A stretch of DNA of 64,000 nt. Origin: Siphonodentalium dalli. Lineage: Eukaryota > Mollusca > Scaphopoda > Gadilida > Siphonodentaliidae. Under the pieces are notes generated by a model that searched no databases, was not told where the DNA came from, and saw nothing but the letters and a program-made list of their open reading frames with translations. The position numbers were made by a program, and so were the translations under genes. The DNA lies in assembly GCA_032622095.1 (NCBI GenBank), contig CP136063.1, forward strand, positions 31,188,987-31,252,986, in the 5' to 3' direction. Positions 10,293-63,540 of this stretch are shown in pieces; within the stretch, counting starts at the first letter, position 1; every line of letters starts with the position of its first letter.

Positions 10293-11899
10293 TTTACAGC
10301 TCGTTGTATGAGTGCAGGAACATATCCCGATTTACCTCTCTCAAAATGTACATAGCATAACTTAGTCGGTATTGTGAAAGAGAACATAGCTTTTGTCTCA
10401 TGTATGCATGTTCTTTGGAACACACGTTGAACCAACGGATGCGCATTTTCCAGTTAGATGCACTGGGCCCGGTTGCTTCCCTTCCACACACGAATAGTTT
10501 TATCAAATGAAATATGGGTTTCTGGTTGGCGTTCATCCTTCTTTGGAATCACACCGAAGCAAACCTACTGAGATCAGCTGCCTGATATAACACCATATTC
10601 ACCACGTCGTGGTTATATCCACCTACACATGCTGTCGCTGCCCCATATGTCATATTGGTTGGCACTGTCAATCCGTCTCTCTCAATTTGTTCAAAACATG
10701 TGTAGTACTGGACGATAACTGCAGTTCCTTGAGCATAGCCCTGGTGTTTGATGCGACATTGATGGCATTCTGTATATTAAGGGATTTACTGATCGCGAGT
10801 TCAGGTTTAGTCCGTGATTTATCATTAAAACACACTTTGTCAGAGTAATTCAGTTCAATCTTTTCCTTCAGTTTCTGTGAAGTGTAGACCTGGCTACACT
10901 TCGGTTTGCCTATTTGTCGTAATATGTCCAGGAACTTTGATAGTAGATTACCCATATCATATGTGACACCTTTTTCAAAGTTCGAGAGAATACAACCATC
11001 AAATGTTCCAGTGCAACATCGTGTGGGGTAATCGTGTTACTGGAGGTGATGGGCTCCAGCAGATATTTACTATGACACAACCTGTGATGTCTTGCCTCAA
11101 GTGCTATCAACTTCGAAATGTCAAACCCAACACGCCGTTGCATCATGTCATCCTCCTTTTCCTTCGCACATCGTTCGGTAGTTTCGCAAGATGTAAATGT
11201 ACTGACCCGAACTAATGTCTTTACTCCCAGGTGAGACAACTTTGAGCATATAAGACATCTAGTTTTGAAGTCGAAATATTCTCTTGTAACTTGTGGATTT
11301 GTCTGATCAACAGTCGTGGATGTGGGCTGTTTGACTAATCTGAGATCCGAAGAACTTGTGAAACTGGAGATTGGAGAAACAACTCTTATGCAAACTTATG
11401 TTGAGATCTTTAAGGTCAATTCCATATTCTTCATATGATGATCGACGAACACCCAGAGCAACTGAAAACGATTCCAAACAAGAATCGGAAGCTTTTCGCA
11501 GATTCTCGTCTTTTAATTTCTGACATAATAAACACCGTTTGAAATTCAACGAAAGTTTACACTTTTTGGCAACGGGTATTAATTTGAGAGGACTCGTCTC
11601 CATTTCAATTGAATCACTGTAATCTGCAGTTAAATGCAGCAAATTATTAAGGTTTGATACAGGAATTTTCCGGAAAATTACAAAGCGGGCAGTATCAGTT
11701 AGAAAACATTAATGAATCGAACGCTGATTTTAGTCCTAAACATACACTTCATTGAGTATTTTTCGAAATCAGTATAACTATTAGAGCTTGTGTTGTAGCT
11801 ACGACATATGAAATCTTTATTTTAACATAATGATGATTAGTATTGCCATAAAGCAATAACTTGTCATAGCTAGTTCGAGTTTTCGGTTTATGGTTATTT

Positions 11900-16674: not shown

Positions 16675-19600
16675 AGTTTAAACAGTATTTATTTTTCCCT
16701 CTATGGACATTCAGATAAATAATTACAATAGATACAAATTTAGAAGAAAAATGGGATTAGGCAACAAGCCATATGCTTATTTGAAGCCCTCTCCCTTGAC
16801 AATGGCATAGCCCTACTTGACTGCAAGTCAAGTAGGGGTAAATAATAGAGGCATAAAAAAGATCCATAGAAAGAAGAAATATGAGGTGGATGCGAGACAA
16901 AGGGACAGAAGATAATGTCAGAATTTTAGAGAGAAAGTCAGAGTACAGAGTGTGAGGTGTAATTATATATCTGAACATGCATATAATTAATTTCAAATAA
17001 ACCAAAAAGATATATAATAACACATTTCAAGGAAATAAAAAGTATTTATACATAATTTGTGATTGGAAAAATAACCATGTGAACATCTGCAGTGGTCCAT
17101 CGACCCGACGGCCCACGTTGGAGAGACAAATAGCATCTCGGTTTATGATGTACCATGCAAGTTCAATATTGCAATTTTGGAACAGCTTAAGAGAAGAATC
17201 GTTGAAAGCGATTACTGGTTATTATAAATTTCTGAGCTGCCATGAAGATTTTCTTATTAGTTTCATAGGATAATTCATCAGATCCCCATAGTAATAATTC
17301 ACTAGTTATTGTTACATCAGATAGGGTATTAAGAAGTTCTTCTCTGTGTGAGGTATATTGAGCGCATTCCAGAAAAAAATGTCTAGCAGTTTCAATGCAA
17401 CCACACATGCAATAAGGCAAGTCTTTGAGGTGGTTATCTTTTAGATCGCTGTTAAGATTGCTACATCTTAATCTCAGCCTGGTGTGGTAAATTTGAGCTG
17501 TCCTAGAATAGCTGGTAAAGTAGTATTTAGGCTTTAATATATCAGGTTTAAGATTGCGTTTGAAATCGCCTATTGAAGTTGCTTCTTTAACAGAGTCTGG
17601 GAGTAGATTCCACGAACGGACAGACGACGGAAGAAAGGATTGCATATAGTAATCATTATTACTATCAGGGGGGGGGGGGCGTTTTATTGTATTTCTAGTG
17701 TTGTGGTCATGTAGTGAGTTACTTTCTGGGGGTACCATATTACTAATATAAGGTGGTGTCCTACCGGTTTTCATTTTGAAGAATTGGATCAATTTATGCT
17801 GCTTGCGTCTATCGTCAAGATATTCCCACCCGGCCTCATCTATCAACTTGGCATTACTAACACTTCGGGTTGCACCGGTAACTATTCTCGCCATTTCGTA
17901 TTGGATGTCTTCAATATCATCTCGTAAGTAGTCCGGACAATTATCCCAAACGGGGGAGGCATATTCTAAAATTGGTCGAATGAAAGTGAAATAAATTTTT
18001 TCGAGAGACTTTCTGCTCAGCCTATATTTAAAACGTTTGATCATATTTAATTTTTTCCAGGCTTTCTCGGTTATTGAATTAATGTGTGTATTCCAAGTGC
18101 CACGATCGTCAAATGTTAAACCTAAATGTTTATGCGCTTGCACATCAGTGATTATGGAATTTCCCATAAATAAAATGGAGTGAAACGGTTGATCATTCTT
18201 GCGCGAAACTAGTAGTGTTTCAGTCTTGAGAGGATTAAATTTAACAAGCCATTTTACAGACCAACTGACTATCGTTTCAATATCTCGGTTGATTATACCA
18301 GCGGCTATATTAGGATTTTCAATCGTAAGAAAGATAGAGGTGTCATCAGCAAAAAGACGAATGTTGCACACGAGATTTTCAGTTATGTCATTTATATATA
18401 TTAAGAATAACAGGGGTCCTAAAATATACCCCTGAGGGACACCAGCAGTAGTTGCACGCCATGCAGATAGTTCATTGTCAGCTGACACCCTCTGCTTTCT
18501 AAGTTCCAAGTAAGATACGAGAAGATTATACACATTTTCCGTAATGCCAATTTTTTTTAGTTTGAGAAAAAGCCCTTTATGCCACACCTTGTCAAAGGCC
18601 TTGCTCATATCACAAAATACGCAACGAACCTCTTTGCCTTCGTCTAGTGATCTACATATAGAATCATAAACTTCAGTCAACTGGTACACAGTCGAATCAC
18701 CTCTTTTAAAACCAGACTGGTACATAGAAAGTAACCCGTTTTCATCAAGAAACGTCCACAAATGTTTATATATGCATTTCTCGAAAACTTTCGATAAACA
18801 GCTTAACAATGAAATTGGGCGGTAATTCGATAGAATACTTGGGTCTCCACTTTTAAAAACTGGACATACATTAGACAGCTTCCACTCAGAAGGATAATAA
18901 CAGTTTTCACTAAATGCATTGCATAACAGTGTTATATGTTCACAGAGTGATTTGGCACATTGTTTTAGGACCCTAGGATTTATCATATCTGGACCGCACG
19001 CCTTAGATGGTTTCATACCATTTAGAGCATCATAAACGTCAATTGTCGTTATTTTGAGCTCACCCAGCGTAGGGTTGCCCGTTACTAGTAGAGATTGTAT
19101 GGGAAGATCATGTACAGAATCATCTATGCTGGATATATCACAAAAGTATGAATTTAAAGCATTAACTTTATCTACAGTAGAAATAATGTGCTCGCCATTG
19201 AGTTGGAGAGGGGGTAGTGAATTGCGCTTACCATTTGAGATTAATTTCTGAAATTGTTTCCACCATGTTGAATTGTCGGAGTCATTAATAAGTATTGCAT
19301 CAATTTTGTTATCATAATCCAATTTGGCTTTCCGGACTGCGCTAATGACTTCGTTTCGTTTCGCCCGAAATTTACTCCATGTATTAGGTGTGTTTTTGAT
19401 TTTAGCACTTTTATGCAATCTATTTCGTTGTGTCATTAGTTGTCTTAAACCGCAAGTAAGCCATTCTGGAACGTCCCTTCTAATATGTACAACCTTACTT
19501 GGTATAAATTCCTGGCAATCTTGGTGGATTTTATCAGTATAATGAGTCACGAGAGCAGACACGGGAGTGGTGCGGACAATATCCCGGTAATCCCAAGCAG

Positions 19601-20525
19601 AAAACGTATGATTCATTGCCTCGAAGTTAGCTCTATCGAAATTCCATATTCGTCGAGTAATTATTGACGCACGTTCAGTGTGGAAGTTTAGTGTAATTTG
19701 TATGGGGCAATGGTAACGTATCATTTCTGGAAAAAAAGGGGACATAACTTCAGTTTTATCAACAATATCACCATAATTTGTTAAAAACAGATCCAGAGTG
19801 GTTTCTGAAGACTCCGTGAAATGAGTGCATTCATTAACTAACTGGATTAATCCACATCTAGTTTTTAGACCATTTATTTTTGAGGCGCAGCTCGCGGAAT
19901 TGTAATTTTCATTGAAGTCACCTCCAATAATAACCTTATGCACATCATCAATAGCATTTTTAATATTTATTTCGATGCTGTCCCATGATGAGACTGGCGA
20001 GTTTGGTGGTCTGTAAAAACATCCAATTAAAATTTTCTTACCACTAAGACACATTTCCACCCACACAGATTCAATATTTGGATCTATAAGATCAGGCCTC
20101 ATTTTAAACGGTAGAGTATTTCTCAGAAATATACAGACACCACCTCCTGTTGTGTCTAATCCCCTATCGTTACGTATAGGTTCGTGATATCCATGAAGCA
20201 TAATTTCAGAATTAGGAACAGACTGGTCTAGCCAGGTTTCAGTAAAAAGACAAATATCATAATCGGTCAATTCCGCATTTAGGGTGTCCATTTTATGTCG
20301 TATACTCTGAGTATTCAATTGTATTATAGAACATGCGTTATCGGTTGCAGGATATCCTGGTATAGGCCCCGGGTTAGTTTCGATATTTCCGCTTAAGATA
20401 ATCAGCAATATAATAAGGTCTATCAATAATACAACAACTAGAAGGAATATGGGCATCTTTGTATGATAACAAGAAATGCCATCACATTTGTAAGTTCGCT
20501 CAATATTCATTTTCATGAACAGTTT
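16675..20525 (-). mobile_element. APE-type non-LTR retrotransposon, near full length
   Basis: A 3.85-kb minus-strand insertion bounded by a perfect 13-bp target duplication, GCGCGAACAGTTT at 16,662-16,674 and 20,526-20,538. The 5' end lies only 9 bp before the first ATG; the 3' region of about 500 bp (17,186 down to 16,675) is non-coding and has no poly(A) tail. The single reading frame is intact, so the copy is young. The endonuclease-RT order and a C-terminal CxC...H-x4-C motif place it in the Jockey/CR1-like group of LINEs; the exact clade is not determined. A run of G residues at about 17,670 lies in the coding region. Confidence 0.88.
17187..20516 (-). CDS. Non-LTR retrotransposon polyprotein: 2A-like/signal N-terminus, APE endonuclease, reverse transcriptase
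   Basis: 1109 residues without interruption. Residues 22-41 are strongly hydrophobic and run straight into GNIETNPGP (43-51), a 2A-like ribosome-skipping motif in which the usual Asp is Asn. The APE/EEP endonuclease follows (LNTQSIRHK 67-75, TETW 92-95, FYRPPNS 167-173, GGDFN 198-202, a YHCP histidine near 269). The reverse transcriptase has FKSGD...NYRPISLL (554-571), AFDKVW (640-645), GVPQGYILGPLLF (692-704) and the catalytic FADD (722-725). A C-terminal CMCGC...HFFLEC motif sits at 1036-1051. The protein would nick target DNA and copy its RNA into the nick (target-primed reverse transcription). All key RT residues visible are present. The first ATG is chosen because the target duplication leaves only 9 bp before it. 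Confidence 0.9.
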   Translation of the reverse strand: MKMNIERTYKCDGISCYHTKMPIFLLVVVLLIDLIILLIILSGNIETNPGPIPGYPATDNACSIIQLNTQSIRHKMDTLNAELTDYDICLFTETWLDQSVPNSEIMLHGYHEPIRNDRGLDTTGGGVCIFLRNTLPFKMRPDLIDPNIESVWVEMCLSGKKILIGCFYRPPNSPVSSWDSIEINIKNAIDDVHKVIIGGDFNENYNSASCASKINGLKTRCGLIQLVNECTHFTESSETTLDLFLTNYGDIVDKTEVMSPFFPEMIRYHCPIQITLNFHTERASIITRRIWNFDRANFEAMNHTFSAWDYRDIVRTTPVSALVTHYTDKIHQDCQEFIPSKVVHIRRDVPEWLTCGLRQLMTQRNRLHKSAKIKNTPNTWSKFRAKRNEVISAVRKAKLDYDNKIDAILINDSDNSTWWKQFQKLISNGKRNSLPPLQLNGEHIISTVDKVNALNSYFCDISSIDDSVHDLPIQSLLVTGNPTLGELKITTIDVYDALNGMKPSKACGPDMINPRVLKQCAKSLCEHITLLCNAFSENCYYPSEWKLSNVCPVFKSGDPSILSNYRPISLLSCLSKVFEKCIYKHLWTFLDENGLLSMYQSGFKRGDSTVYQLTEVYDSICRSLDEGKEVRCVFCDMSKAFDKVWHKGLFLKLKKIGITENVYNLLVSYLELRKQRVSADNELSAWRATTAGVPQGYILGPLLFLIYINDITENLVCNIRLFADDTSIFLTIENPNIAAGIINRDIETIVSWSVKWLVKFNPLKTETLLVSRKNDQPFHSILFMGNSIITDVQAHKHLGLTFDDRGTWNTHINSITEKAWKKLNMIKRFKYRLSRKSLEKIYFTFIRPILEYASPVWDNCPDYLRDDIEDIQYEMARIVTGATRSVSNAKLIDEAGWEYLDDRRKQHKLIQFFKMKTGRTPPYISNMVPPESNSLHDHNTRNTIKRPPPPDSNNDYYMQSFLPSSVRSWNLLPDSVKEATSIGDFKRNLKPDILKPKYYFTSYSRTAQIYHTRLRLRCSNLNSDLKDNHLKDLPYCMCGCIETARHFFLECAQYTSHREELLNTLSDVTITSELLLWGSDELSYETNKKIFMAAQKFIITSNRFQRFFS

Positions 20526-20538
20526 GCGCGAACAGTTT

Positions 20539-30639: not shown

Positions 30640-31297
30640 TTAACATAGCCGCCCTTACATAGATGAACATTGCAGAGATTGCAACCAAATACAGTTTCTT
30701 TTGAGTTCAGATGAAACCGACATCGGTTCTTGCGTCCCATGTGTGTGGACACGTTCCCGTTTGAGGTTTATGGTGATATATTGAGCGCACATGGCTCTTG
30801 TGCTTTGCGTTTTCTAGAAGAATATCCTGCAATCAGTTGATGAGCCAGTTCAATCCTAAAATCCATATGCGTGAACACCTTCTCAGAATTATGTCTCTTT
30901 GACGTTTCTTTGAACAAGATGAAACTGTTAACTATTGCTGAATTGGAGACAAACCAGAAGATGTATATCCATGCTTTTTTCCCTTCGCGACCGAGGAGAT
31001 ACGTCATCCTCAACTGATCAAGTTTGTCAACACCATTCATGTACTTGTTGTACATGAATATGCTCATCGGCTGAATCACTTCGATAATTGTTTTTCCCTG
31101 GCGCCGATTAGCCATAATATCTGTCGTTGGGTCAGTCGTCGTGCCAAGTGTGAACACTTGTTTCTTGTCCTGCCATACAGTTGCCGTGAGAAATTCGCTA
31201 TCCTGCCTAGTTTTATAGTCACCTCGATTCATTTTCTTTAGTCGCTGTAAATCCTTCAGGAATCCTTTCCTGTTCTGCTTAACTGAGTTGGTCTTGT
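30640..31297 (-). pseudogene. piggyBac-type transposase, C-terminal half (copy 2)
   Basis: The minus strand is open from the insertion point at 31,297 to 30,768 and reads KTNSVKQNRKGFLKDLQRLK, NRGDYKTRQD, VWQDKKQVFTL, RRQGKTIIEVIQP, YNKYMNGVDKLDQLR, then GREGKKAWIYIFWFVSNSAI. These are the last catalytic Asp region (GVDxxDQ) and conserved C-terminal helices of piggyBac transposases. After a stop near 30,768 the Cys-rich C-terminal domain continues in a shifted frame (NRCRF...GCNLCNVHLCKGG, about 30,735-30,640). The N-terminal half is absent. This fragment lies antisense and upstream of ZF2, as copy 1 does for ZF1, and is separated from the ZF2 leader by the 3.1-kb composite insertion. Confidence 0.85.
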
Positions 31298-34200
31298 GGT
31301 TACACTGGTGTAAATAAGGTTCGGAGAGACCTCTAGCGGATGCGGGAGGAATATATAGGAGAGAATAAAATAGACACTGGGCCCTGATTGGTCAATAGCC
31401 TTGTGTGCTTTTTGCATAACAAAACCATCACACCTCTTCCCTATGATTTCCCATAGGTAAGATAGCCATTGGCACAGGAATTAACCCTTTGTAGTGAAGT
31501 TTGAATTTGTTGGTGTGGTCTAAAATATGACAGTATTTTTTTATGCGGATCTGACACTAGTTACGAAAACACAAGATTTAAAGGCGAATTCCCTGCTAGA
31601 CAGATATGATTTTTTTGTGTAAAAAGTTTCCCGAAATGTCAATTTTTCAGATTAAAAAAAAAAATTGGACCCATGGTTCATATAGCCAACAGCATACGCT
31701 AAAACGTTAGCACTGAGGCCTATGGAAAACATTTACACCAGTGTAACCTAAAGGGAAAAATTAGCTTTTTGGCATTTTTGATTCCTGGGAGTCACTTTAA
31801 AGTATTTTAATGCATTTTTCACAGCCTGGTCTTTCAGTCCAATGAATCTCCCATGCATGGTGTGGCTATTCTTGCTGCTGATGTCTTCTTTCACTTACAT
31901 CGGCCAAAAAAATGGTATGATTTTTCATAAAAAATGCCAATTTTTCAAGGTATTTTCAAAATATTTTAAGGTGGTAATTGTCACATGATAATGCAAATTA
32001 CCCATAACATGAGCATGTCAATGACACACACACCAATTGTTATAAGAAGCTAATCTAACAAGTATTTTGGATTTTATAGCCAGTGATATACAGATATATA
32101 TAATAAAAGTGTCTCATTTTCACTGGTGGGTATGGCCATTTGAAGGTTAATAGTACTAAAACTTGGACACATTTAAGAAAATGCTTCAGCATTTCAAAGA
32201 AAGCATATCTTTGTTCAACTAATTCAATATACACCCACATCCAGTTATCTTGGATGACCCTTGTAGACCTGAACATGTCATATTTTAGTCTTCCATGTGC
32301 TGATAAAGTCATGTGCTTGATGCTCAGCTGATCAGATCTGGACTCAATGACCTCACATCACCAGAAGTTCTCTCATGGAAAGGATCTTGTACAGTCTTCC
32401 ATAGCTGATCCAAGTTTGCAACACCAGACCCCAAAAACTGTGTGAAAATGGGGCCTGAATATGACTTGTGGTGGAAAAGTGTGCTTTTTGATGAATAATG
32501 TGTTACAGAGAGTGGGGTTAAATTGTGTGTGATAAATAAAGAACCACAGAAGTGATATTATTTTTGAACACATTTTTTTCATTCATGGGCAATTCTGAAA
32601 AAATGTAGGGTGCTACAATTATTCCGCGAAAAAGTGGGCTATCGCTTTGGGTTACACTGGTGTAAATAAGGTTCGGAGAGACCTCTAGCGGATGCGGGAG
32701 GAATATATAGGAGAGAATAAAATAGACACTGGGCCCTGATTGGTCAATAGCCTTGTGTGCTTTTTGCATAACAAAACCATCACACCTCTTCCCTATGATT
32801 TCCCATAGGTCAGATAGCCATTGGCACAGGAATTAACCCTTTGTAGTGAAGTTTGAATTTGTTGGTGTGGTCTAAAATATGACAGTATTTTTTTATGCGG
32901 ATCTGACACTAGTTACGAAAACACAAGATTTAAAGGCGAATTCCCTGCTAGACAGATATGATTTTTTTGTGTAAAAAGTTTCCCGAAATGTCAATTTTTC
33001 TGATTAAAAAAAAAATTGGACCCATGGTTCATATAGCCAACAGCATACGCTAAAACGTTAGCACTGAGGCCTATGGAAAACATTTACACCAGTGTAACCT
33101 AAAGGGAAAAATTAGCTTTTTGGCATTTTTGATTCCTGGGAGTCACTTTAAAGTATTTTAATGCATTTTTCACAGCCTGGTCTTTCAGTCCAATGAATCT
33201 CCCATGCATGGTGTGGCTATTCTTGCTGCTGATGTCTTCTTTCACTTACATCGGCCAAAAAAATGGTATGATTTTTCATAAAAAATGCCAATTTTTCAAG
33301 GTATTTTCAAAATATTTCAAGGTGGTAATTGTCACATGATAATGCAAATTACCCATAACATGAGCATGTCAATGACACACATACCAATTGTTATAAGAAG
33401 CTAATCTAACAAGTATTTTGGATTTTATAGCCAGTGATATACAGATATATATAATAAAAGTGTCTCATTTTCACTGGTGGGTATGGCCATTTGAAGGTTA
33501 ATAGCACTAAAACTTGGACACATTTAAGAAAATGCTTCAGCATTTCAAAGAGAGCATATCTTTGTTCAACTAATTCAATATACACCCACATCCAGTTATC
33601 TTGGATGACCCTTGCAGACCTGAAAATGTCATATTTTAGTCTTCCATGTGCTGATAAAGTCATGTGTTTGATGCTCAGCTGATCAGATCTGGACTCAATG
33701 ACCTCACATCACCAGAAGTTCTCTCATGGAAAGGATCTTGTACAGTCTTCCATAGCTGATCCAAGTTTGCAACACCAGACCCCAAAAACTGTGTGAAAAT
33801 GGGGCCTGAATATGACTTGTGGTGGAAAAATGTGCTTTTTTGATGAATAATGTGTTACAGGGAGTGGGGTTAAATTGTGTGTGATAAATAAATTCTGAAA
33901 AAATGTAGGGTGTTACAATTATTCCGCGAAAAAGTGGGCTATCGCTTTAGGTTACACTGGTGTAAATACGGTTCGGAGAGACCTCTAGCGGATGCGGGAG
34001 GAATATATAGGAGAGAATAAAATAGACACTGGGCCCTGATTGGTCAATAGCCTTGTGTGCTTTTTGCATAACAAAACCATCACACCTCTTCCCTATGATT
34101 TCCCATAGGTAAGATAGCCATTGGCACAGGAATTAACCCTTTGTAGTGAAGTTTGAATTTGTTGGTGTGGTCTAAAATATGACAGTATTTTTTTATGCGG

Positions 34201-34404: not shown

Positions 34405-34640
34405 ACACTGACGCATGTGTAGGCTATGTAGCCATCTTTCGTCTTGTGAACGGTTCCACTAAACAAAACCACATAATGAGACCCATGTTAATTCGTTCTT
34501 TGTTCGACTTGAAAATCGATCGTGATCCTTCCGTATCAAGAACTAAATAATTTACAGTTACGGTGTGGATTTCGGCTATAATTAGATCAGATTCCCGCTA
34601 CCTTTACCAGATATACATCTGACTAACACAATTCCACACG
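34405..34640 (+). promoter_or_regulatory. Shared upstream/leader region of ZF2
   Basis: Nearly identical to 358-597 upstream of ZF1, including TGTAGGCTATGTAGCCATC and CTAACACAATTCCACACG directly before the ATG. The composite element now lies immediately upstream, so any control DNA further 5' has been displaced by 3.1 kb. Confidence 0.5.
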
Positions 34641-35714
34641 ATGGGAGATGCTAGACTGAATTCTCATGAGACCGACAACGCAGGGAATAAACGGCACCAT
34701 TGTGGCGTGTGTGGGAAATCGTTTACCCAATCGAGCTACTTGGTGGCACATAAGAGAATCCATACCGGAGATAAGCCTTACAGTTGTGATATATGCGGGA
34801 AATCATTTAATCATTCGAGCAACTTGGTGACACATACGAGAATCCACACCGGAGACAAGCCTCACAGTTGTGATATATGCGGGAAATCATTTAATCGATC
34901 GGACCACTTGGCGATACATAAGAGAATCCACACCGGAGATAAACCTTACCGTTGTGATATGTGCGGGAAATCATTTATCCAATCGAGCGCGTTGGTGGTG
35001 CATAAGAGAATCCACACCGGAGATAAACCTTACCATTGTGATATATGCAGGAAATCCTTTAAACGATCGAGCGAATTGGTGGCACATAAGAGAATACACA
35101 CCGGAGATAAGCCTCACAGTTGTGATATATGTGGGAAATCGTTTAATCATTCGAGCAACTTGGTGGCGCATAAGAGAATCCACACCGGAGATAAACCTTA
35201 CCATTGTGATATATGCGGTAAATCATTTAATACATCGAACCGCTTGGTGACACATAGGAGAATCCACACTGGAGATACGCCTTACTGTTGTGATATATGC
35301 GGGAACTCATTTAATACATCGAGCCACTTGGTGACACATAAAATAATCCACACTGGAGATAAGCCTTACGGTTGTGATATATGCGGCAAATCATTTAATT
35401 ATCCAAGCGCCTTGGTGACACACAAGAGAATCCACACCGGGGATAAGCCTCAACGTTGTGATATATGTGGGAAATCATTTAATCATTCGAGCAGCTTAGT
35501 GACACATACGAGAATCCACACAGGAGATAAGCCTTACCGTTGTAATATATGTGGGAAATCATTTAGTCAATCGAGCAACTTGGACAAACATGAGACAATT
35601 CATACTGGAGATAAGCCTTACAGTTGTGGTATATGCGGGAAATCATTCAGTCAATCGATATCTTTGGTGAAACATCAGATAATCCACACAGGAGATAAAA
35701 CCTTACCGTTATGA
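34641..35714 (+). CDS. C2H2 zinc-finger protein, 12 fingers (ZF2)
   Basis: 357 residues: leader MGDARLNSHET, then 12 complete fingers at 28-residue spacing with linker HTGDKPY. It is paralogous to ZF1 through the segmental duplication; the leader and finger 1 (TQSSYLVA) match. ZF2 carries fingers absent from intact ZF1 (NRSDHLAI, NYPSALVT) and only one copy of the IQSSALVV-KRSSELV pair, so fingers have been gained and lost since the split. The frame ends DKTLPL-stop because of a one-base gain in an A-run near 35,697; the finger pattern continues beyond it in another frame. No effector domain. Expected to be a nuclear nucleic-acid-binding protein; target unknown. Confidence 0.87.
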   Translation: MGDARLNSHETDNAGNKRHHCGVCGKSFTQSSYLVAHKRIHTGDKPYSCDICGKSFNHSSNLVTHTRIHTGDKPHSCDICGKSFNRSDHLAIHKRIHTGDKPYRCDMCGKSFIQSSALVVHKRIHTGDKPYHCDICRKSFKRSSELVAHKRIHTGDKPHSCDICGKSFNHSSNLVAHKRIHTGDKPYHCDICGKSFNTSNRLVTHRRIHTGDTPYCCDICGNSFNTSSHLVTHKIIHTGDKPYGCDICGKSFNYPSALVTHKRIHTGDKPQRCDICGKSFNHSSSLVTHTRIHTGDKPYRCNICGKSFSQSSNLDKHETIHTGDKPYSCGICGKSFSQSISLVKHQIIHTGDKTLPL

Positions 35715-37005
<1,291 letters not shown>

Positions 37006-39803: not shown

Positions 39804-45392
<5,589 letters not shown>

Positions 45393-45600: not shown

Positions 45601-45781
45601 TAGATAATCGTCACCAAGTCCCTCGAATGATTACATGATTTCTCGCATATATCACAATTATAAGGCTTATCTCCAGTGTTGATTTTCTTATGGCTCGCTA
45701 ACGAATTCGATCGATTATATGATTTATCGCACATATCAAGATACTAGAATGATTAAATGGTTCACGGTAGTAAGGTTTACC
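45600..45781 (-). pseudogene. Decayed finger tail of ZF3
   Basis: Two to three damaged fingers (ICEKS-like and ICDKSYNRSN-like pieces, linkers HTGDKPYN) follow the ZF3 stop with indels and lost Cys residues. The first base after the HT of ZF3 is the T of a TGA where a linker GGA is expected. Confidence 0.7.
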
Positions 45782-47110
<1,329 letters not shown>

Positions 47111-48319: not shown

Positions 48320-50071
48320 GGTAGAGTGAATGTTGCACTTAATATGTGGCAGAATTAACGTAGCACCTTTAAAAGTTATATTTAGAAAAAGCACATGGAA
48401 ATTGTTTACATTTATTCACTATTAAGTATTAACAAATAAAAACTACACACCTAACCAAATTTAGTAAACCGCTTTTCAATTGGTCCGTTTTCCCGCGTTT
48501 TGTTGTTACGTCACAACCTCGTTATCGGAGTTCGATCTCGTTCTCAAATTTCCCTCGTAGCAAAAGGGTCGCAAATATATTTGGCTTGTTTAGTCATCAA
48601 TTTTATTCATTAATGTCTTAAGTAATAATGGAAGGCCAATACAGATAGTTGGGAGTGTCTTTTGTCTCAACGGCAAGGTAAATACAACTCTTATACATCG
48701 TATGTTATTACAGATATTACAAGTGTTTTCATGAGATAATATTTCACTTTCAGGATATTTACTCCTTTTGGTCAAAGGTCAAACCTAAACCTTGAGGGTT
48801 TGAATTATTCATATCAATTCCGATGGCGGCATATATTTATAGTCAAATACTTTTTAAGTCATTATATTTACACTTTTAATTATCATTTGAACATTTTTAT
48901 GGGGAGGGGGAAGTTTTTATATTTCAAGTGCATGAAGCACAGTAATCACTGTCAGTTATAAAGTAATCACAAGTCAGTAATAGATGAAATAAATAACAAA
49001 GTATCTAGCAAATGTTCAGTTCATTTACTATTGTTGTATTTTGGTTATTGCAGAGAAATTCCGAAGATCTGTAGAAGCTAGACACATGTATACCTGTAGC
49101 ACGACATTTGTACAGCGCTGTATACCAATATCATCCAATATATATATATATATATAAAGACATTTTGAGGTGAGACCTTTCCATTATTAACCTCCAACCC
49201 TCATGGCGAAGAAATTAGATATATAAACATGTTTCTCGGACTCATACAATTACTTGACTGTCGTGTATACACATGCATACCAAACATATATATGCATATA
49301 ACGATTTCCCTGAGAAAGGAATCCCTGCGACATTTATTATATTTTATCGAACGTTTTTCTTTCTGTCCCAGGACCCATAATGTCAAACAATTCACAATCA
49401 TCTATATTCCCATGTATTTCCTTTTCATTGCAGAACGATTTCAATATTTTCAATGCAAAGTTTTGTTGTTTCTTTTTTTATTTTGCTTGTAAAATTTTCT
49501 TCAATAAATTGCCGGGCTTCTAGTTGGGCAAATCTAAAATTTTCTTCCTCAGGAATGATTAACAATGGAAAGCAGACGTCGTTGTTGTTGTTGTTGTTAT
49601 TAAACAATGACATCAGTTCAAAACATTACTTTTTTTTATCGAAAACAACTGAAGATTCGTTCAGAAAATTTAGTAGCACGAACTAAGGAAATAGACAAAA
49701 ATATCAAAGCGATATTGTGATCAGCGGAGAAAGGAACATGATAAATCGCCACACCAAACATGGATAAAACATCACAAATAACATAAAGAAATTGCTTACG
49801 ATCATTTATTGTGCTCGAGTTGTCGATTACAAAGACATTTCGGATAAAAAAGTGTTGAACTTTTGCAGCGAGGTGGAGATGACTTTCAAATTACCTCCCC
49901 GGAATAGTGGGCATGTTAAAAATAGATTTCTGGATTTTCCAAGCGATAGTGGGTGTGCTAAAATTAGGAGGCCCACTATGGCTTCGTGGACAACACTATC
50001 GATAATAGTGAATGTCAATCAACCAATCACAAGCGTGGATAAGGCTTAGATAGTCACGTGAGATAAAAATA
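48320..50071. other. No gene recognised; simple repeats
   Basis: AT-rich sequence with an (AT)n tract near 49,138-49,156 and a (GTT)n tract near 49,580-49,596. Open frames of 60-87 codons on both strands overlap and look random. Confidence 0.45.
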
Positions 50072-50132
50072 TATCGCAATATGGTATCATCCGAATGGTC
50101 TGTTCTAAAAATAGACACATAAACGGTCCCAA
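50072..50132 (+). mobile_element. M1 fragment, host of the next M1
   Basis: Matches ATCGCAATATGGTATCATCC to the AAACGGTCCC part of M1 and ends where M1 copies have ATTTAATATT; the next M1 sits in that TTAA. Confidence 0.6.
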
Positions 50133-50660
50133 TTAAAGATGGATTATCTCTTTAAATAATTTTTTTTAAATAGTTGCGTGGCTATAAAATAATAGATATG
50201 AACTGAATACCCCTGTCCGGAAAAGCTTCTAGCAATTAATATTGATTTTATTTCGAATATTAAATCGGGACCGTTCATGTTACTATTTTTAGAACAGACC
50301 ATTCGGATGTTGCCATATTGCGATATAGAGTACTGGGCTGTTCCTGTGGCTACGCAACGAAAGTTAAATATCAAAGATTGGTTGTTTGTATTGTTTTGTT
50401 CCACATATATAAGCGCTAATAAGTATAACTAACGTTTATTTGTGACAAAATTGTATAATAAAATTTATGGTCTCTGTTAACGGTAACCACTATTGTTCGT
50501 TAGCTGAACAAACACACCTTTTTAGACCAGAAAATATTCGAAATAAAATCAATATTAATCGATACAAGCATTTCCGGACATTAGTCTTCAATTCAAATCT
50601 AATATTTTATACCCCGGTAACTATATAATACACGTTTACAAAGAGATTATCCACCTTTAA
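50133..50660 (-). mobile_element. M1 MITE, complete, inside another M1
   Basis: 528 bp between TTAA 50,133-50,136 and 50,657-50,660, opposite in orientation to the fragment it interrupts. Confidence 0.85.
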
Positions 50661-50793
50661 ACGATTTCATATGACAGTTTGAAAATTAAGAGGTATCCGT
50701 TCATTGTTGAATATTTATTACATGTATGTACATACGGCTATACCGGTTTCGGCACATCTTTCAATAGCTTGGAGTCACTGATGAAATTGTATA

Positions 50794-51360
50794 TCTCATA
50801 TATATTTTGAAGACCTCTGTTTGTCTGTCTGTATGTCCTTTATAGAATCGAAAACGGGTTGAACGATCGAGACCAAACTTCCTATCCAAAGGTAAAATCC
50901 CACGGACACCGTCGGCGTCGCGTTTTGGAGAAGCTCAGACCACCCGTTCTCCACTCTCAGTCACAAAAAACGGCACTGCGGTGGTTAATCAAGTGATAAT
51001 TTAATGAGCGGTTGTTTTTGACGTATCGCTATAAAGAGCGTTTGTTTACCATTCAACGTTATTAGCATCTGCAGAGAGATATACGGGAACAATACTGCAG
51101 ACGAGATCTCGGAAACGGGTGGACCTATCGACTTGAAATTTGGTATGTGAATGTATCTTGCCCCGGATACGAATTTTATCGGGTCGCCGAGCCCGTGCGA
51201 CGTCAGCTTCGCGTATGCGCAGACCAGATCTCGGAAACGGGTGGAGCTATCGACTTGAAATTTGGTTTTTGAATAGCCCGGACAACTTCGGACTGGGTAG
51301 AGCTATCGACTTGAAATTTGGTTTTTGAATAGCCCGGATAACGTCGGGCTCATCGGCTAG
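50794..51360 (+). mobile_element. Helitron-like element 1 (non-autonomous)
   Basis: The 5' end is TCTCATATATATTTTGAAGA after an A. The 3' end has hairpin GCCCGGATAACGTCGGGCT, then CATCGGCTAG, followed by T. A TC start, a 3' hairpin close to a terminal CTAG, and an A/T host site without target duplication are Helitron hallmarks. It contains a unit of about 115 bp (GATCTCGGAAACGGGTGGA...) in two to three copies. It has no Rep or helicase gene. Confidence 0.78.
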
Positions 51361-52247
51361 TCTCATATATATATATAGAAGACCTCTGTCTGTTTGTCTG
51401 TTGACCGATCGAGACCAAACTTCCTATCCAAAGGTAAAATCCCACGGGAATCGTCGACATCGCATTTTGGAGAAGCCCAGAGCACCCATTCTCCACTCTC
51501 ATTCACGCAAAAAACGGCACTGCGGTGGTTAATCAAGTGATAATTTAATGAGCGTTTGTTTTTGATGCATCGCTATAAAGAGCGTTTGTTTACCATTCAA
51601 CGTTATTAGCATCTGCGGAGACATATACGGGCCATAGTACTCTTACAACATTTCTGCAATATAATTGCCTCAAATTGTTCAGCATCATTGTTATAGTATG
51701 TATGACACTTAGGTCAGGGCTTAGGGGGGGGGGGTAGTTAGTGTGGATATAGGCATAATGCTTCTCAGAAATCCCGGTTACAAACCAACACTCACAATTT
51801 CGTCTTTTGCATCAGATACCAACGCCACGATTCTCGACCGATCGGGACGAAACTTGGTACGTGTGTGTAGTTTGACCAGGCGGTCGTATCGGCGAGTCCG
51901 TGCGACGCCCGTGCAGCGCATGCGCAGACGAGATCTCGGAAACGAGTGGAGCTATCGACTTGAAATTTGCTATGTGAATGTATCTTGCCCCGGATACGAA
52001 TTGTATCGGGTCACCGAGCCCGTGCGACGCCAGCTTCGCGCATGCGCAGACCAGATCTCGGAAACGGGTGGAGCTATCGACTTGGAATTTGCTATGTGAA
52101 TGTATCTTGCCCCGGATACGAATTTTATCGGGTCACCGAGCCCGTGCGACACCAGCTTCGCGCAGACCAGATCTCGGAAACGGGTGGAGCTATCGTCTTG
52201 TAATTTGTTTTTTGAATAGCCCGGACAACATCGGGCTCATCGGCTAG
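51361..52247 (+). mobile_element. Helitron-like element 2 (non-autonomous)
   Basis: Starts TCTCATATATATATATAGAA directly after the CTAG of element 1 and ends with hairpin GCCCGGACAACATCGGGCT and CATCGGCTAG. It shares most of its left 270 bp and the 115-bp GATCTCGGAAACGG unit (here three to four copies, 51,925-52,200) with element 1. A G-run lies at 51,724. Open frames here (for example 51,743-52,099) come from the tandem unit. Confidence 0.78.
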
Positions 52248-52941
52248 TCTAATATATATTTTGGAACTTGTCTGTCTGTGTGATAGCTATGGCCGGGAAA
52301 ACTGTCAGACGGATTTTGACGAAATTTGATACCTAGGGTTAATTATGTCCAAGGAGTGTTTTTGGACGGGTGAAATCGTTACCCCGAGCTGACATCGACC
52401 TTCAAAAAGGTCAATTCAAGTTCAAATTGGGTAAAACGGGACGGATTTCAACGAAATTTGATACCTAGAGGTACTTTTTTCCGGGGAGTCTTTTGGACGG
52501 GTCAAATCGTTACCCCAACTCGGCCCTTCAAAAAGGTCAAATCGGGTAAAACGGACTGATTTCGACGAAATCTGATACCTAGTAGTACTTTTGCCCAGGG
52601 AGTGTTTTGGACCTGTCAAATCGTGACCCCGACCTGCCTTGACCTTCAAAATTGTCAATTCAATGTCAAATCGCGAATTTTGACGGGCTTTCGACAAAAT
52701 TTGATACCTAGGGTTACTTTTGTCCGAGGAGTGTTTTGGATGGGTCAAATCGTGACCCCAACCTGACATTGACCTTCAAAATGGTCAATTCAAGTCAAAT
52801 AGGACGAATTTCGACGGGTACTTTTGTCCAGGTCAAATCGTGACCCGGACCTGACCTTGACCTTCAAAAGGGTCAATTCATGGTCAAATCACCGAAAAGC
52901 AGAGGGGAAACAGGCCGGACGAAGTCGGGTCCTCCAGCTAG
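52248..52941 (+). mobile_element. Helitron-like element 3 (different family)
   Basis: Starts TCTAATATATATTTTGGAAC directly after the CTAG of element 2 and ends CCGGACGAAGTCGGGTCCTC, then CAGCTAG and T. The interior differs from elements 1 and 2: about six degenerate repeats around TTTGATACCTAG and TGACCTTCAAAA spaced roughly 100-110 bp. No protein gene. Confidence 0.75.
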
Positions 52942-52954
52942 TATATACATATAT

Positions 52955-53180
52955 ATAAAGCTTATGTGTCGTGTGGATACTCTTATGTTTCACCAAGATG
53001 CCTGAGTAAGTAAATGATTTCACCAAGTCGCTCGATCGATTACATAATTTCCCGCATATATCACAAAGGCAAGACTTATCTCCGGTGTGGTCAAGTCTCT
53101 TGTGTTAACAAGTTACAAGATGATTAAATGATTCACGATGGTAAGGTTTACCTCATGTGTGGATTATCGTGTGTGTCATA
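52955..53180 (-). pseudogene. Zinc-finger debris
   Basis: Minus-strand linker and finger pieces (complement reads CACACCGGAGATAAGTC, then GTGATATATGCGGGAAATTA) with indels; part of the decayed array downstream of ZF4. Confidence 0.65.
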
Positions 53181-53639: not shown

Positions 53640-54436
53640 TGCTCGATTGAATTATCACATGTATCACAATGGTAAGGCTTATCTCTGTGTGGATTCTCTT
53701 ATGTCTCGCCAAGCTGCTCAATGTATTAACCATTTCAGTGCCAGGGGCCGATCTAATCAGCCCTAATTTACGGTATGTGGAGCCCTAAACAAATACAAAA
53801 TAACAAAAATTTGGATTTGAATTTTTTTTGGGTATGCTTAAGCATGCTATAGCGAATTTTAAAAACAAACTGGATAAAACCTTAGAGGCATGTTATAACT
53901 CAAAACTTTCACCAAGTGTTCATATTAATAATTTTGATGCCCATGAAAAACGTAAGATTCCCTGGCGCTAAACCTACAAAATAAATCTGCTAAAGAATAT
54001 AAGAAAAAATTAATTAAAATTGAAAAAAATTGTAAAAAATAATAATAAATGATAAAAAATTGTCAGGCCAATGCATTCTCTTATATATAAGAGAATGCAT
54101 TGGCACAGGGTATATGGGCTGATACAAAAATCGGACCTGGCACTCAAAGGGTTAAACGAATTCACGAATATATCACAACGGTAGGGCTTGTCGCCCGGTG
54201 TGGATTCTCTTATGTTTCACAAAGTCGTTCGGTGGATTAAATTATTTTCCGCATATGTCACAACGTTAAAGCTCATCTCCGATGGGATTCTCTTATTTTT
54301 CACCAAGTCTTTCGATTGATTAAACTATTTCCTGCATATAAGGCTTATATCCAGTGTGGATTCGCTTGTGTCACAACACAAACTTGCTGGATCGTTTAAA
54401 TGATTTCCGACATATATCACTATGGTAAGGCTTATC
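53640..54436 (-). pseudogene. Decayed finger array downstream of ZF4, split by a MITE
   Basis: Damaged fingers at 53,640-53,725 and 54,156-54,436. Removing the MITE at 53,726-54,155 rejoins a recognisable finger: the helix side TGCTCAATGTATTAAACGAA continues into ATATATCACAACGG. Several frameshifts and a missing Cys pair show that the array was already dead or has died since. Confidence 0.75.
53726..54155. mobile_element. piggyBac-like MITE in a zinc-finger codon
   Basis: 430 bp flanked by TTAA (53,726-53,729 and 54,152-54,155). The ends are CCATTTCAGTGCCAGG and CCTGGCACTCAAAGGG, a TTAA(C/A)C...CAGTGCCAGG type of terminus seen in piggyBac-like elements. It contains a 36-bp perfect palindrome at 54,068-54,103. 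The interior is AT-rich with no gene. Confidence 0.87.
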
Positions 54437-55282
<846 letters not shown>

Positions 55283-62143: not shown

Positions 62144-63216
62144 ATGGGTGATGCTAACATGACTGTTCACGAGACCGTCCAGACGGGAAATATATACGTC
62201 ACAGTTGTGAAGTATGCGGAAAATCGTTTACTCGATCAGACAGCTTGGCGAGACATAAGATCATCCACACTGGAGATAAGCCTTACCATTGTGATATATG
62301 CGGGAAATCATTTAGTTATTCGAGTGTCTTGGTGACACATACGAGAATCCACACAGGAGATAAGCCTTACCGTTGTGATATATGCGAGAAATCGTTTAAT
62401 CAATCAAGATACTTGCTGAAACACAAGAAAATCCACATACATGTAGGTGACAAGCCTTATCATTGTGATATATGCGGGAAAGCGTTCACCCAGTCGAGTA
62501 ACTTTGAGACACATAAGAGAATCCACACAGGAGAGAAGCCTTACCATTGTGATATCTGCGGGAAATCATTTAATGATTCGAGCACCTTGGTAAAACACAA
62601 GAGAATCCACACCGGAGATAAGCCTTACCATTGTGGTATATGTGGGAAATCATTTAGTCATTCAAGTGTCTTGGTGACACATACGAGAATCCACACAGGA
62701 GATAAGCCTTACCATTGTGATATATGCGGGAAATCGTTCACTCAATTGACCAACTTGGTGAATCATAAGATAATCCACACCGGAGATAAGCCTTACCATT
62801 GTGATATATGCGGGAAATCGTTCACACAGTCGAGTAACTTTGAGACACATAAGAGAATCCACACAGGAGATAAGCCTTACGATTGTGTTATATGCGGAAA
62901 ATCATTTATTCAATCGAGGGGTTTGTTGACGCACAAGAGAATACACACTGGAGTTAAGCCTTACCGATGTGATATATGCGGGAAATCATTTGATCAGTCA
63001 CAAGGTTTGGCGACACATACGCGAATCCACACCGGAGATAAGCCTTACCATTGTGATATATGCGGGAAATCATTTATTCAATCAAGCGCCTTGGCGAGAC
63101 ATAATAGAATTCATACAGGTGATAAGCCCTACCATTGTGATATATGCGGGAAATCATTTAATCGATCGGACATCATGGTGACACATAAGATAATCCACGC
63201 TGGAGATAAGCCTTAA
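62144..63216 (+). CDS. C2H2 zinc-finger gene, 12 fingers, leader out of frame (ZF5)
   Basis: The leader ATG at 62,144 (MGDANMTVHETVQTGN) is clearly that of the family, but the fingers are in another frame: the finger frame reads RHSCEVCGKSFTRSDSLARH from about 62,196 and stays open to the TAA at 63,214. A single-base indel near 62,190 would explain it, so this copy is either a recent pseudogene, starts internally, or is misread in the assembly. It has twelve fingers; one linker has two extra residues (KIHIHVGDKPY). Two fingers have identical helices (TQSSNFET, fingers 4 and 8) and neighbouring fingers also recur, suggesting block duplication. The final linker reads AGDKP-stop. No other domain. 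Confidence 0.75.
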
Positions 63217-63540
63217 CGTTGTGATATATGCCCGAATGTATGTAGTCAGTCCGGCCCCTTGACTGTATACAAAACAATTCATACCGGAGATCGCCCGTAT
63301 CAATGCGATACATGTATGTCCGGGGAATCCATTCTCTTGCATCGCTAACTTGATCGAACATAAGATAATTCACACCGGAAATTATGACTGTGATATGTGC
63401 GGGAAATAAGTTAATCGGTGAGATTACTTTATATAAAACAATTCACCGGAGATTGCCCGTCCGACATGTCCTGGGAATCCATTCTCTTGCAGCGATAACT
63501 TAATCGAACAGAAGATAATTCACACCGGAAATCGCCGATA
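63217..63540 (+). pseudogene. Decayed finger tail of ZF5
   Basis: After the stop the frame continues RCDICPNVCSQSGPL, then TIHTGDRPYQCDTC, with further damaged repeats to about 63,540 (TAATTCACACCGGAAAT occurs twice). Ligands and spacing are lost. Confidence 0.7.

Follow-up and report, generated by a model that had tools for sequence, protein, structure and literature searches.

The three-element array and its surroundings

The window analysed here, a 64,000-nucleotide stretch of the Siphonodentalium dalli genome (C3:31188987-31252986 of a 2.23-Gb assembly in 9 contigs), contains three Helitron-like elements of 567, 887 and 694 bp that adjoin without a gap at positions 50794-52941 of the plus strand. 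The array reads A(50793)/TCTCATATATATTTTG...CATCGGCTAG(51360)/TCTCATATATAT...CATCGGCTAG(52247)/TCTAATATATATTTTGG...CCTCCAGCTAG(52941)/T, and both joins are exactly CTAG/TC, so that the boundaries given in the initial annotation (51,360/51,361 and 52,247/52,248) are exact. All three elements start with TCTMATATATAT and end with CTAG. As had been proposed, elements 1 and 2 belong to one family (A) and element 3 to another (B).

Element 1 (50794-51360, family A, 567 bp) runs from TCTCATATATATTTTG to CATCGGCTAG and has relatives elsewhere in the genome at up to 97%. Its right end contains a hairpin (51331-51350, z -2.13) with a 6-bp stem that stops 10 nt from the 3' end. The first junction, CTAG/TCTCATATATAT (51357-51372), leads into element 2 (51361-52247, family A, 887 bp), which contains a 122-bp internal tandem repeat (51893-52207) and a right-end hairpin (52218-52237, z -2.76), again with a 6-bp stem that stops 10 nt from the end. 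The second junction, CTAG/TCTAATATATAT (52244-52259), marks the change from family A to family B. Element 3 (52248-52941, family B, 694 bp) runs from TCTAATATATATTTTGG to CCTCCAGCTAG. A hairpin had been annotated before each CTAG; this description holds for elements 1 and 2, whereas in this copy of element 3 the structure at 52912-52933 is weak (z 0.23) and no better than in shuffled sequences. The host A at position 50793, the last base of a left flank ending in GAAATTGTATA, is the left half of the insertion dinucleotide, and the right flank (52942-52960, TATATACATATATATAAAG) retains the right half of the target that was hit first. This right flank is AT-rich, with TATA, judged by eye, at +1 and +9 and none within +4 to +10. 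When the two flanks of the array were joined and compared with the window and the sampled loci, nothing bridging the insertion point was found.

By end sequence and insertion dinucleotide, the three elements are classified as probable canonical, non-autonomous Helitrons. The canonical (Helitron1) ends, a 5' TC and a 3' CTRR (here CTAG), are present in all three, and a hairpin in the canonical place, about 10-15 nt from the 3' end, is present in elements 1 and 2. A and T border the array, and A or CTAG precedes 98 of the first 100 A-type starts listed in the genome. According to the available text of PMC5148889, Helentrons (Helitron2) insert either in TT or after TTTT and before T or C, which does not agree with the A/T insertion seen here. 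A search of Rfam returned no match at gathering scores.

Several other repeats lie in the window. Directly to the left of the array, at 50070-50628, there are inverted repeats of 96 nt (83%) and 71 nt (89%), and the right flank of the array resembles a decayed C2H2 zinc-finger cluster. Clusters of an 84-bp C2H2 zinc-finger unit are present in both orientations at 580-2746, 34623-35812, 45770-46876, 54339-55072 and 62158-63231. A LINE with an uninterrupted frame of 1116 amino acids, comprising endonuclease and reverse transcriptase domains, occupies 17190-20537 (minus strand), and a fragment of a piggyBac-type transposase (DDE_Tnp_1_7) is found at 30771-31391 (minus strand). The reading frames at 11310-11708 (minus strand) and 41176-41544 (plus strand) have almost the same sequence, face opposite ways and are copies of an unnamed repeat or gene; they had no match in Pfam, and further matching frames lie beside them at 10668-11395 and 41459-42186.

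Genome-wide number, orientation and exactness of the junctions

The 16-mer CTAGTCTMATATATAT has two exact matches in the window, which are the two junctions. With up to 3 mismatches there are three window matches, a count that is also reached by 31 of 100 shuffles, and only the exact window count is therefore informative. The genome-wide junction count that the initial annotation had put forward yields 11,341 exact matches (5460 + 5881), compared with 14 (3 + 11) for the reversed pattern used as a control. The array in the window is unremarkable among the many in this genome. As Helitrons, the elements are ordinary too; what stands out is the scale of the arrays and the likely rule behind them.

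The joins are exact and polar with few exceptions. The pattern used for A-type starts matches 14,396 sites in the genome, and of the first 100 listed, 58 follow A, 40 follow CTAG and 2 follow neither. Because the start pattern left out contexts with G four bases upstream, 40 of 100 overstates the share preceded by CTAG, which is put at about a third once corrected for the bias of the pattern. A run of the A-preceded starts among these 100 derives from one cluster at C1:13.75-13.79 Mb. In this region (C1:13.748-13.787 Mb), many A-type starts on one strand are preceded by TATA in place of CTAG, and a Rep frame of 1614 codons is situated beside the cluster at C1 13.744 Mb; the region may hold a different sort of array or an A-type copy that is autonomous.

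Of the 116 starts of A or B type in the window and the sampled loci, 89 lie directly after CTAG, 26 after A and 1 after neither. Three of the 26 A-preceded starts are CTA/TC joins in which the right end is without its G (L012, minus strand, 1898; L016, plus strand, 4610; L018, plus strand, 8686), which would reflect either a lost base or an imprecise cut at the right end. No CTAG occurs in the 40 bases before any of these 26 starts. The one start that follows neither, an A-type start at L037 (minus strand, 3738), is located six bases past a G-less A right end (CGGCTA TATATT/TCTC), possibly as a near-miss landing. Head-to-head joins of ends starting TCTM are found at 3 places genome-wide, with a 20-base pattern that is slightly stricter than the 16-base pattern used for head-to-tail joins. 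One of the three, an exact join at L032 (1014-1033; C1:256827513-256827532), connects a B element with an element of another family that starts TCTAATATATATTTGAGGAAAG. At L012, from 5392 on the plus strand, the right ends of two elements lie tail to tail around a short (TA)n run. Insertions inside the left end are rare: within the A left end, to which this count applies, there are at most six matches, and no more than one or two of these look real.

Loci for examination of individual units were picked by similarity to the window block (L009-L028) or by junction clusters on C1 (L029-L031 and L033-L042); the unit-level tests below thus describe a chosen sample of loci, whereas the pattern counts are free of that choice. 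An exact CTAG/TC junction is present in 17 of the 20 loci L009-L028; L023 and L026 each have a junction with a changed base, and L027 is a single unit only. When typed by their ends, the 80 units of the window and these 20 loci comprise 42 Aa, 20 Bb, 2 Cc, 2 Ca, 2 Db and 1 Ba, and the remaining 11 have one or both ends untyped.

These counts bear on the reason first offered for the array, namely that the A/TC edge of a resident Helitron recreates the bare A/T target. If any A/T sufficed and the edge simply supplied one, A or CTAG would precede nearly every start, in agreement with the 98 of 100 noted above. However, A/T is palindromic, and head-to-head joins would consequently be expected about as often as head-to-tail joins, whereas 3 and 11,341 are observed; the inner A/T steps of the left end would also be expected to be in use, and they hardly are. 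This reason therefore fails. Loss of long palindromes in vivo could hide head-to-head joins between two A elements, but hardly those between A and B elements, which have only a short stretch in common. Recreation of a bare A/T target is accordingly considered very improbable.

Relationship between neighbouring units

If they were copies of one circle, neighbouring units would be expected to be closest relatives. In total, 78 A units in 33 arrays were compared, of which 67 have an array-mate. The nearest relative lies in the same array for 12 of these 67, which is more than chance (a null distribution of 1000 has a mean of 2.3 and a maximum of 10). A unit of L042 that was counted twice makes up one of these 12 cases, and 7 of the 12 sit in the block repeats of L013 and L021. 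In adjacent A-to-A pairs, the neighbour is the closest relative of the 5' unit by BLAST score in 1 of 34 (units of 250-1000 bp without an inner junction), and the two lengths differ by more than 30 bp in 27 of the 34. Since the BLAST score favours partners of equal length, the test was rerun with distances over the last 190 bp and with no double-counted units; the neighbour is then strictly closest in 2 of 45 pairs. At 14 A-to-B loci, distances between the A halves and between the B halves are uncorrelated (Mantel r 0.03, P 0.42), although this test of common ancestry is weak in that a burst would look alike. Because neighbours are rarely closest and the A and B halves are uncorrelated, most of the sampled arrays are not copies of one circle, and their units are mostly independent copies.

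Exceptions exist in the form of higher-order repeats. L013 contains two 485-bp units that are 100% identical, and L021 (C2:170.61-170.64 Mb) contains an A-B-B repeat. At C9:184.66-184.70 Mb, the spacing of successive B-to-A junctions alternates between about 1133 and 1662-1786 bp, apart from one longer interval, and the steps mostly total about 2.8-2.9 kb. Owing to these repeats at L013, L021 and C9:184.66 Mb, part of the junctions is attributed to later amplification of blocks. The repeated unit at L021 and at C9:184.66 Mb is a block of several joined Helitrons. Clusters of B-to-A junctions are seen at C2:170.61-170.64 Mb (L021), C9:172.63-172.65 Mb and C9:184.66-184.74 Mb. As before-and-after pairs of one site, L011, L013 and L019 were rejected; they are local duplications and unclean.

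The first alternative to repeated targeting is the rolling-circle concatemer, a multimer that arises when one element is copied repeatedly on a circle or when its right end is read through, and that is then inserted. For Helraiser, circles whose ends meet in an exact CTAG/TC junction are described in the available text of PMC4778049, and tandem arrays are cited as support for rolling circles in that of PMC5876387. The identical blocks of L013 and L021, the periodic steps at C9:184.66-184.70 Mb and the excess of same-array closest relatives would be explained as well. In contrast, the rarity of closest neighbours, the unequal lengths within pairs and the lack of common ancestry of the A and B halves lean against concatemers for most arrays of the present sample, and a circle of one element cannot yield mixed families. 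In rolling-circle tandem amplification of the CentHel kind, neighbours would be closest relatives, a pattern found here at L013 and L021 as exceptions. Concatemers are thus judged improbable as the general explanation. Repeated targeting of the 5' edge, which the initial annotation had preferred to read-through of a single element, fits the data better: neighbours are rarely closest, families are mixed, and the two families occur in a preferred order.

Order and age of units

Genome-wide, the 31-mer of the A-to-B junction is found 364 times and the B-to-A junction 81 times. When the first 100 listed of the 364 A-to-B places and all 81 B-to-A places were trimmed to the same range (C1, and C2 to 217.1 Mb), 73 A-to-B loci were obtained versus 9 B-to-A loci (P 1.4e-13). 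The right end of family B has diverged further from its consensus (4.5%, n 15) than that of family A (2.0%, n 59; P 0.002), whereas there is little difference over the first 200 bp (5.1%, n 16, and 4.1%, n 49, respectively); at most 2 units per locus, with divergence below 0.25, entered this comparison. The A-before-B bias fits newcomers of a younger family, whose landing on the left edge of an older family would give this order. Alternatively, a stronger terminator in B would produce the same bias.

A terminator effect forms part of a second alternative, a composite Helitron, in which a block of several elements is mobile as one and ends at the B right end, most A-B pairs then descending from a few fusions. 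Strong B terminators together with weak A terminators would yield the observed order, and bypass of an end is documented in the available text of PMC4778049. Among the 40 of 19,192 candidates that were scored, A followed by B occurs at 8 places with 82-86% identity. The complete three-element unit, whose recurrence everywhere as one mobile block would, according to the initial annotation, have refuted repeated targeting, was found in the same set at one place only; A followed by B recurs widely in the genome beyond that single block. The A units directly before B range from 404 to 887 bp, which argues against a few fusions, as do the uncorrelated distances of the A and B halves at the 14 loci, weakly, for a star-like burst could hide a correlation. 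A composite is regarded as distinctly improbable.

The initial annotation had also proposed that element 1 is the youngest of the three. This proposal is plausible, but an age gradient is not observed in 45 adjacent A-to-A pairs: divergence of the 5' unit is the lower of the two in 15, the higher in 26 and the same in 4 (P 0.12). With some units counted twice, the corresponding numbers are 18, 29 and 4 of 51. The missing gradient agrees with a third alternative, in which, away from the chromosome, Rep connects circles or displaced strands, the CTAG end of one with the TC end of the next, and the mixed array is inserted once. Such joining would use the same chemistry as the closure of a circle, would create exact, oriented and mixed junctions without any target, and would not be expected to leave an age gradient within an array. 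However, it predicts A-to-B and B-to-A joins in equal numbers, contrary to the 73 and 9 loci, and it leaves the match between the target motif and the left end, described below, without a reason. Joining off the chromosome is rather unlikely.

A one-sided target motif that matches the left end

When a Helitron inserts, the right half of its target is left untouched and becomes the right flank. Of 75 distinct right flanks of A ends from the genome, 68 have TATA at +4 to +10, compared with 481 of 12,719 A/T sites (3.8%) in the window, which alone served as background. The flanks are the first 100 listed of 3747, of which 77 are distinct, minus 2 that resemble mutated left ends; the search pattern left out flanks starting TC and those with C as the last letter. 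In the sampled loci, TATA is found in 13 of 13 right flanks and in 3 of 22 mirrored left flanks (P 4e-7), one of the 22 (L032) being the left end of another element. The preference is therefore one-sided. The left end, A/TCTMATATATATTTTG, has TATA in the position of this motif and likewise on one side only. Since the left end TCTMATATATAT carries the one-sided motif in register, the left edge of a resident element is an oriented landing site.

A first-order model of the A right flanks, trained on 74 flanks after a pure (AT)n flank was also dropped, gives a score of +6.7 to the A left edge (top 0.42% of A/T sites) and of +9.8 to the B left edge (top 0.09%). In contrast, scores of -5 to -16 are obtained for the inner A/T steps of the A and B left ends, and when 22 left edges are read in the mirrored, head-to-head sense, the median is -6.6. 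One one-sided motif therefore accounts for both the register and the orientation of the joins. The match has limits: real insertion sites have a median of +8.5 (leave-one-out), higher than the A edge, and left ends of type C come no further than the top 5%. In element 2, which has a longer AT tract, inner steps outscore the element's own edge, and the right flank of the window array departs from the +4 to +10 rule. With an assumed 40,000 left edges, the model predicts that about 0.2% of landings would occur there, versus the observed share of about a third; something beyond the motif is thus needed.

Rep and helicase genes

Genes of the Helitron transposition machinery are present in the genome, including one in an array. 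At least 151 matches to Helitron_like_N (PF14214) are found with 150 of 457 candidates scored, and several lie in open frames of at least 1600 codons; the same domain has no match in 14 control genomes. On the minus strand of L024 and L047, frames for Rep and for the PIF1 helicase, split into several pieces, lie at the 5' side of an array and upstream of the right end CCCCGTCATGACGGGTACCTAGCTAG, which is taken to belong to the Rep/PIF1 element. A 700-bp unit starting TCTACGATATATTTGAGG adjoins this right end exactly and is followed by an A unit (again an exact join) and then by a B unit. Because CCCCGTCATGACGGGTACCTAGCTAG adjoins the chain of units exactly, an element of the RepHel kind seems to join such arrays. 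The Rep-associated right end has CTAG in common with families A and B, and its subterminal sequence differs from both. A second Rep match is seen upstream of the Rep/PIF1 frames at L024/L047. In L043-L046, 3.5 kb of sequence contained no element end of the types looked for. A 3591-bp B unit at L017 was considered as an autonomous copy and rejected, for its 612-amino-acid frame, judged by eye, is a LINE reverse transcriptase and not a Helitron gene.

Comparison with known systems

Tandem Helitrons are already known, and the behaviour described here differs in variant. Xiong, Dooner and Du (2016) reportedly described tandem arrays in plants, bats and Drosophila, among them CentHel of rice. To judge from the title of that work and the passages that cite it, its arrays resemble the present ones in being tandem, head to tail and often built of truncated or non-autonomous units, and were explained by rolling-circle amplification; the neighbours here are in contrast mostly independent, and families are mixed. 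Helraiser/Helibat1 has the same TC...CTAG ends, A/T target and exact circle junction, whereas self-targeting is not mentioned in the available portions of its reports (PMC4778049, PMC5876387). In the available portion of PMC4778049, a preference of Helraiser for AT-rich targets is described that is strongest next to its 3' end, and the AT-rich stretch near the left cleavage site is remarked on as well; new Helraiser insertions, as far as this account goes, do not cluster round donor sites.

For FoHeli of Metarhizium acridum, three tandem copies are described in the available text of PMC5148889, which leaves the choice open between two successive insertions into the 5' end and rolling-circle replication and also cites tandem Helitron insertions in Drosophila; the Fusarium and Metarhizium FoHeli elements differ from the present families in having non-canonical ends and targets and in being single cases. 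In maize, Helitrons reportedly favour sites close to other Helitrons (Yang and Bennetzen 2009, as cited in PMC12477314) and are likewise attracted to their own kind, but the relation as cited there is one of nearness, compared with an exact, oriented edge here. In wheat, circles with joined ends are reported for the active Helitrons Xuan-Feng, and inverse PCR gave no genomic tandem repeats of Xuan1, according to the accessible part of PMC13286980. Some silkworm Helitrons are stated in the accessible part of PMC3789558 to have formed by combination of others. In the literature surveyed at the level of titles and the beginnings of abstracts, with subscription papers outside its scope, exact polar arrays were never tied to a match between left end and target.

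Proposed mechanism and implications

The arrays are probably best explained by serial landing of non-autonomous canonical Helitrons, each on the left edge of a resident copy, with the left end serving as an oriented target. The transposase would cut at those A/T steps that have a TATA-rich stretch some 4-10 bases to their right, and the left end A/TCTMATATATATTTTG would offer such a stretch in register and on one side only. The CTAG of the newcomer would then be joined to the TC of the resident, head to tail and exactly at the edge. The left end of the newcomer would in turn become the next landing site, so that arrays would extend at the 5' side, and any family with such a left end could enter. 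The Rep protein would bind and nick left ends to start transposition, and this activity may make left ends far better acceptors than motif-like host sites, in which case the frequent use of left ends would follow from it.

A broader form of this proposal, to which slightly less than even odds are given, is that the donor cleavage site is itself the preferred target motif. The left end would then be an oriented landing pad at which several families dock in a polar, self-renewing manner and from which satellite-like higher-order repeats are seeded. As the attraction exceeds that of the motif by about two orders of magnitude, the acceptors might be left ends that are bound or nicked by Rep. The rule predicts one surface of Rep that reads the left end and the target alike.

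Tandem Helitrons are cited as evidence for rolling-circle replication. If the arrays of this genome are mostly serial landings on left ends, each genome needs its own test: whether neighbours are closest relatives, and whether orientation is fixed. Should growth at the 5' side be confirmed, position within an array would give the relative age of its units without a clock. The rule also offers a path by which dispersed transposons may become satellites.
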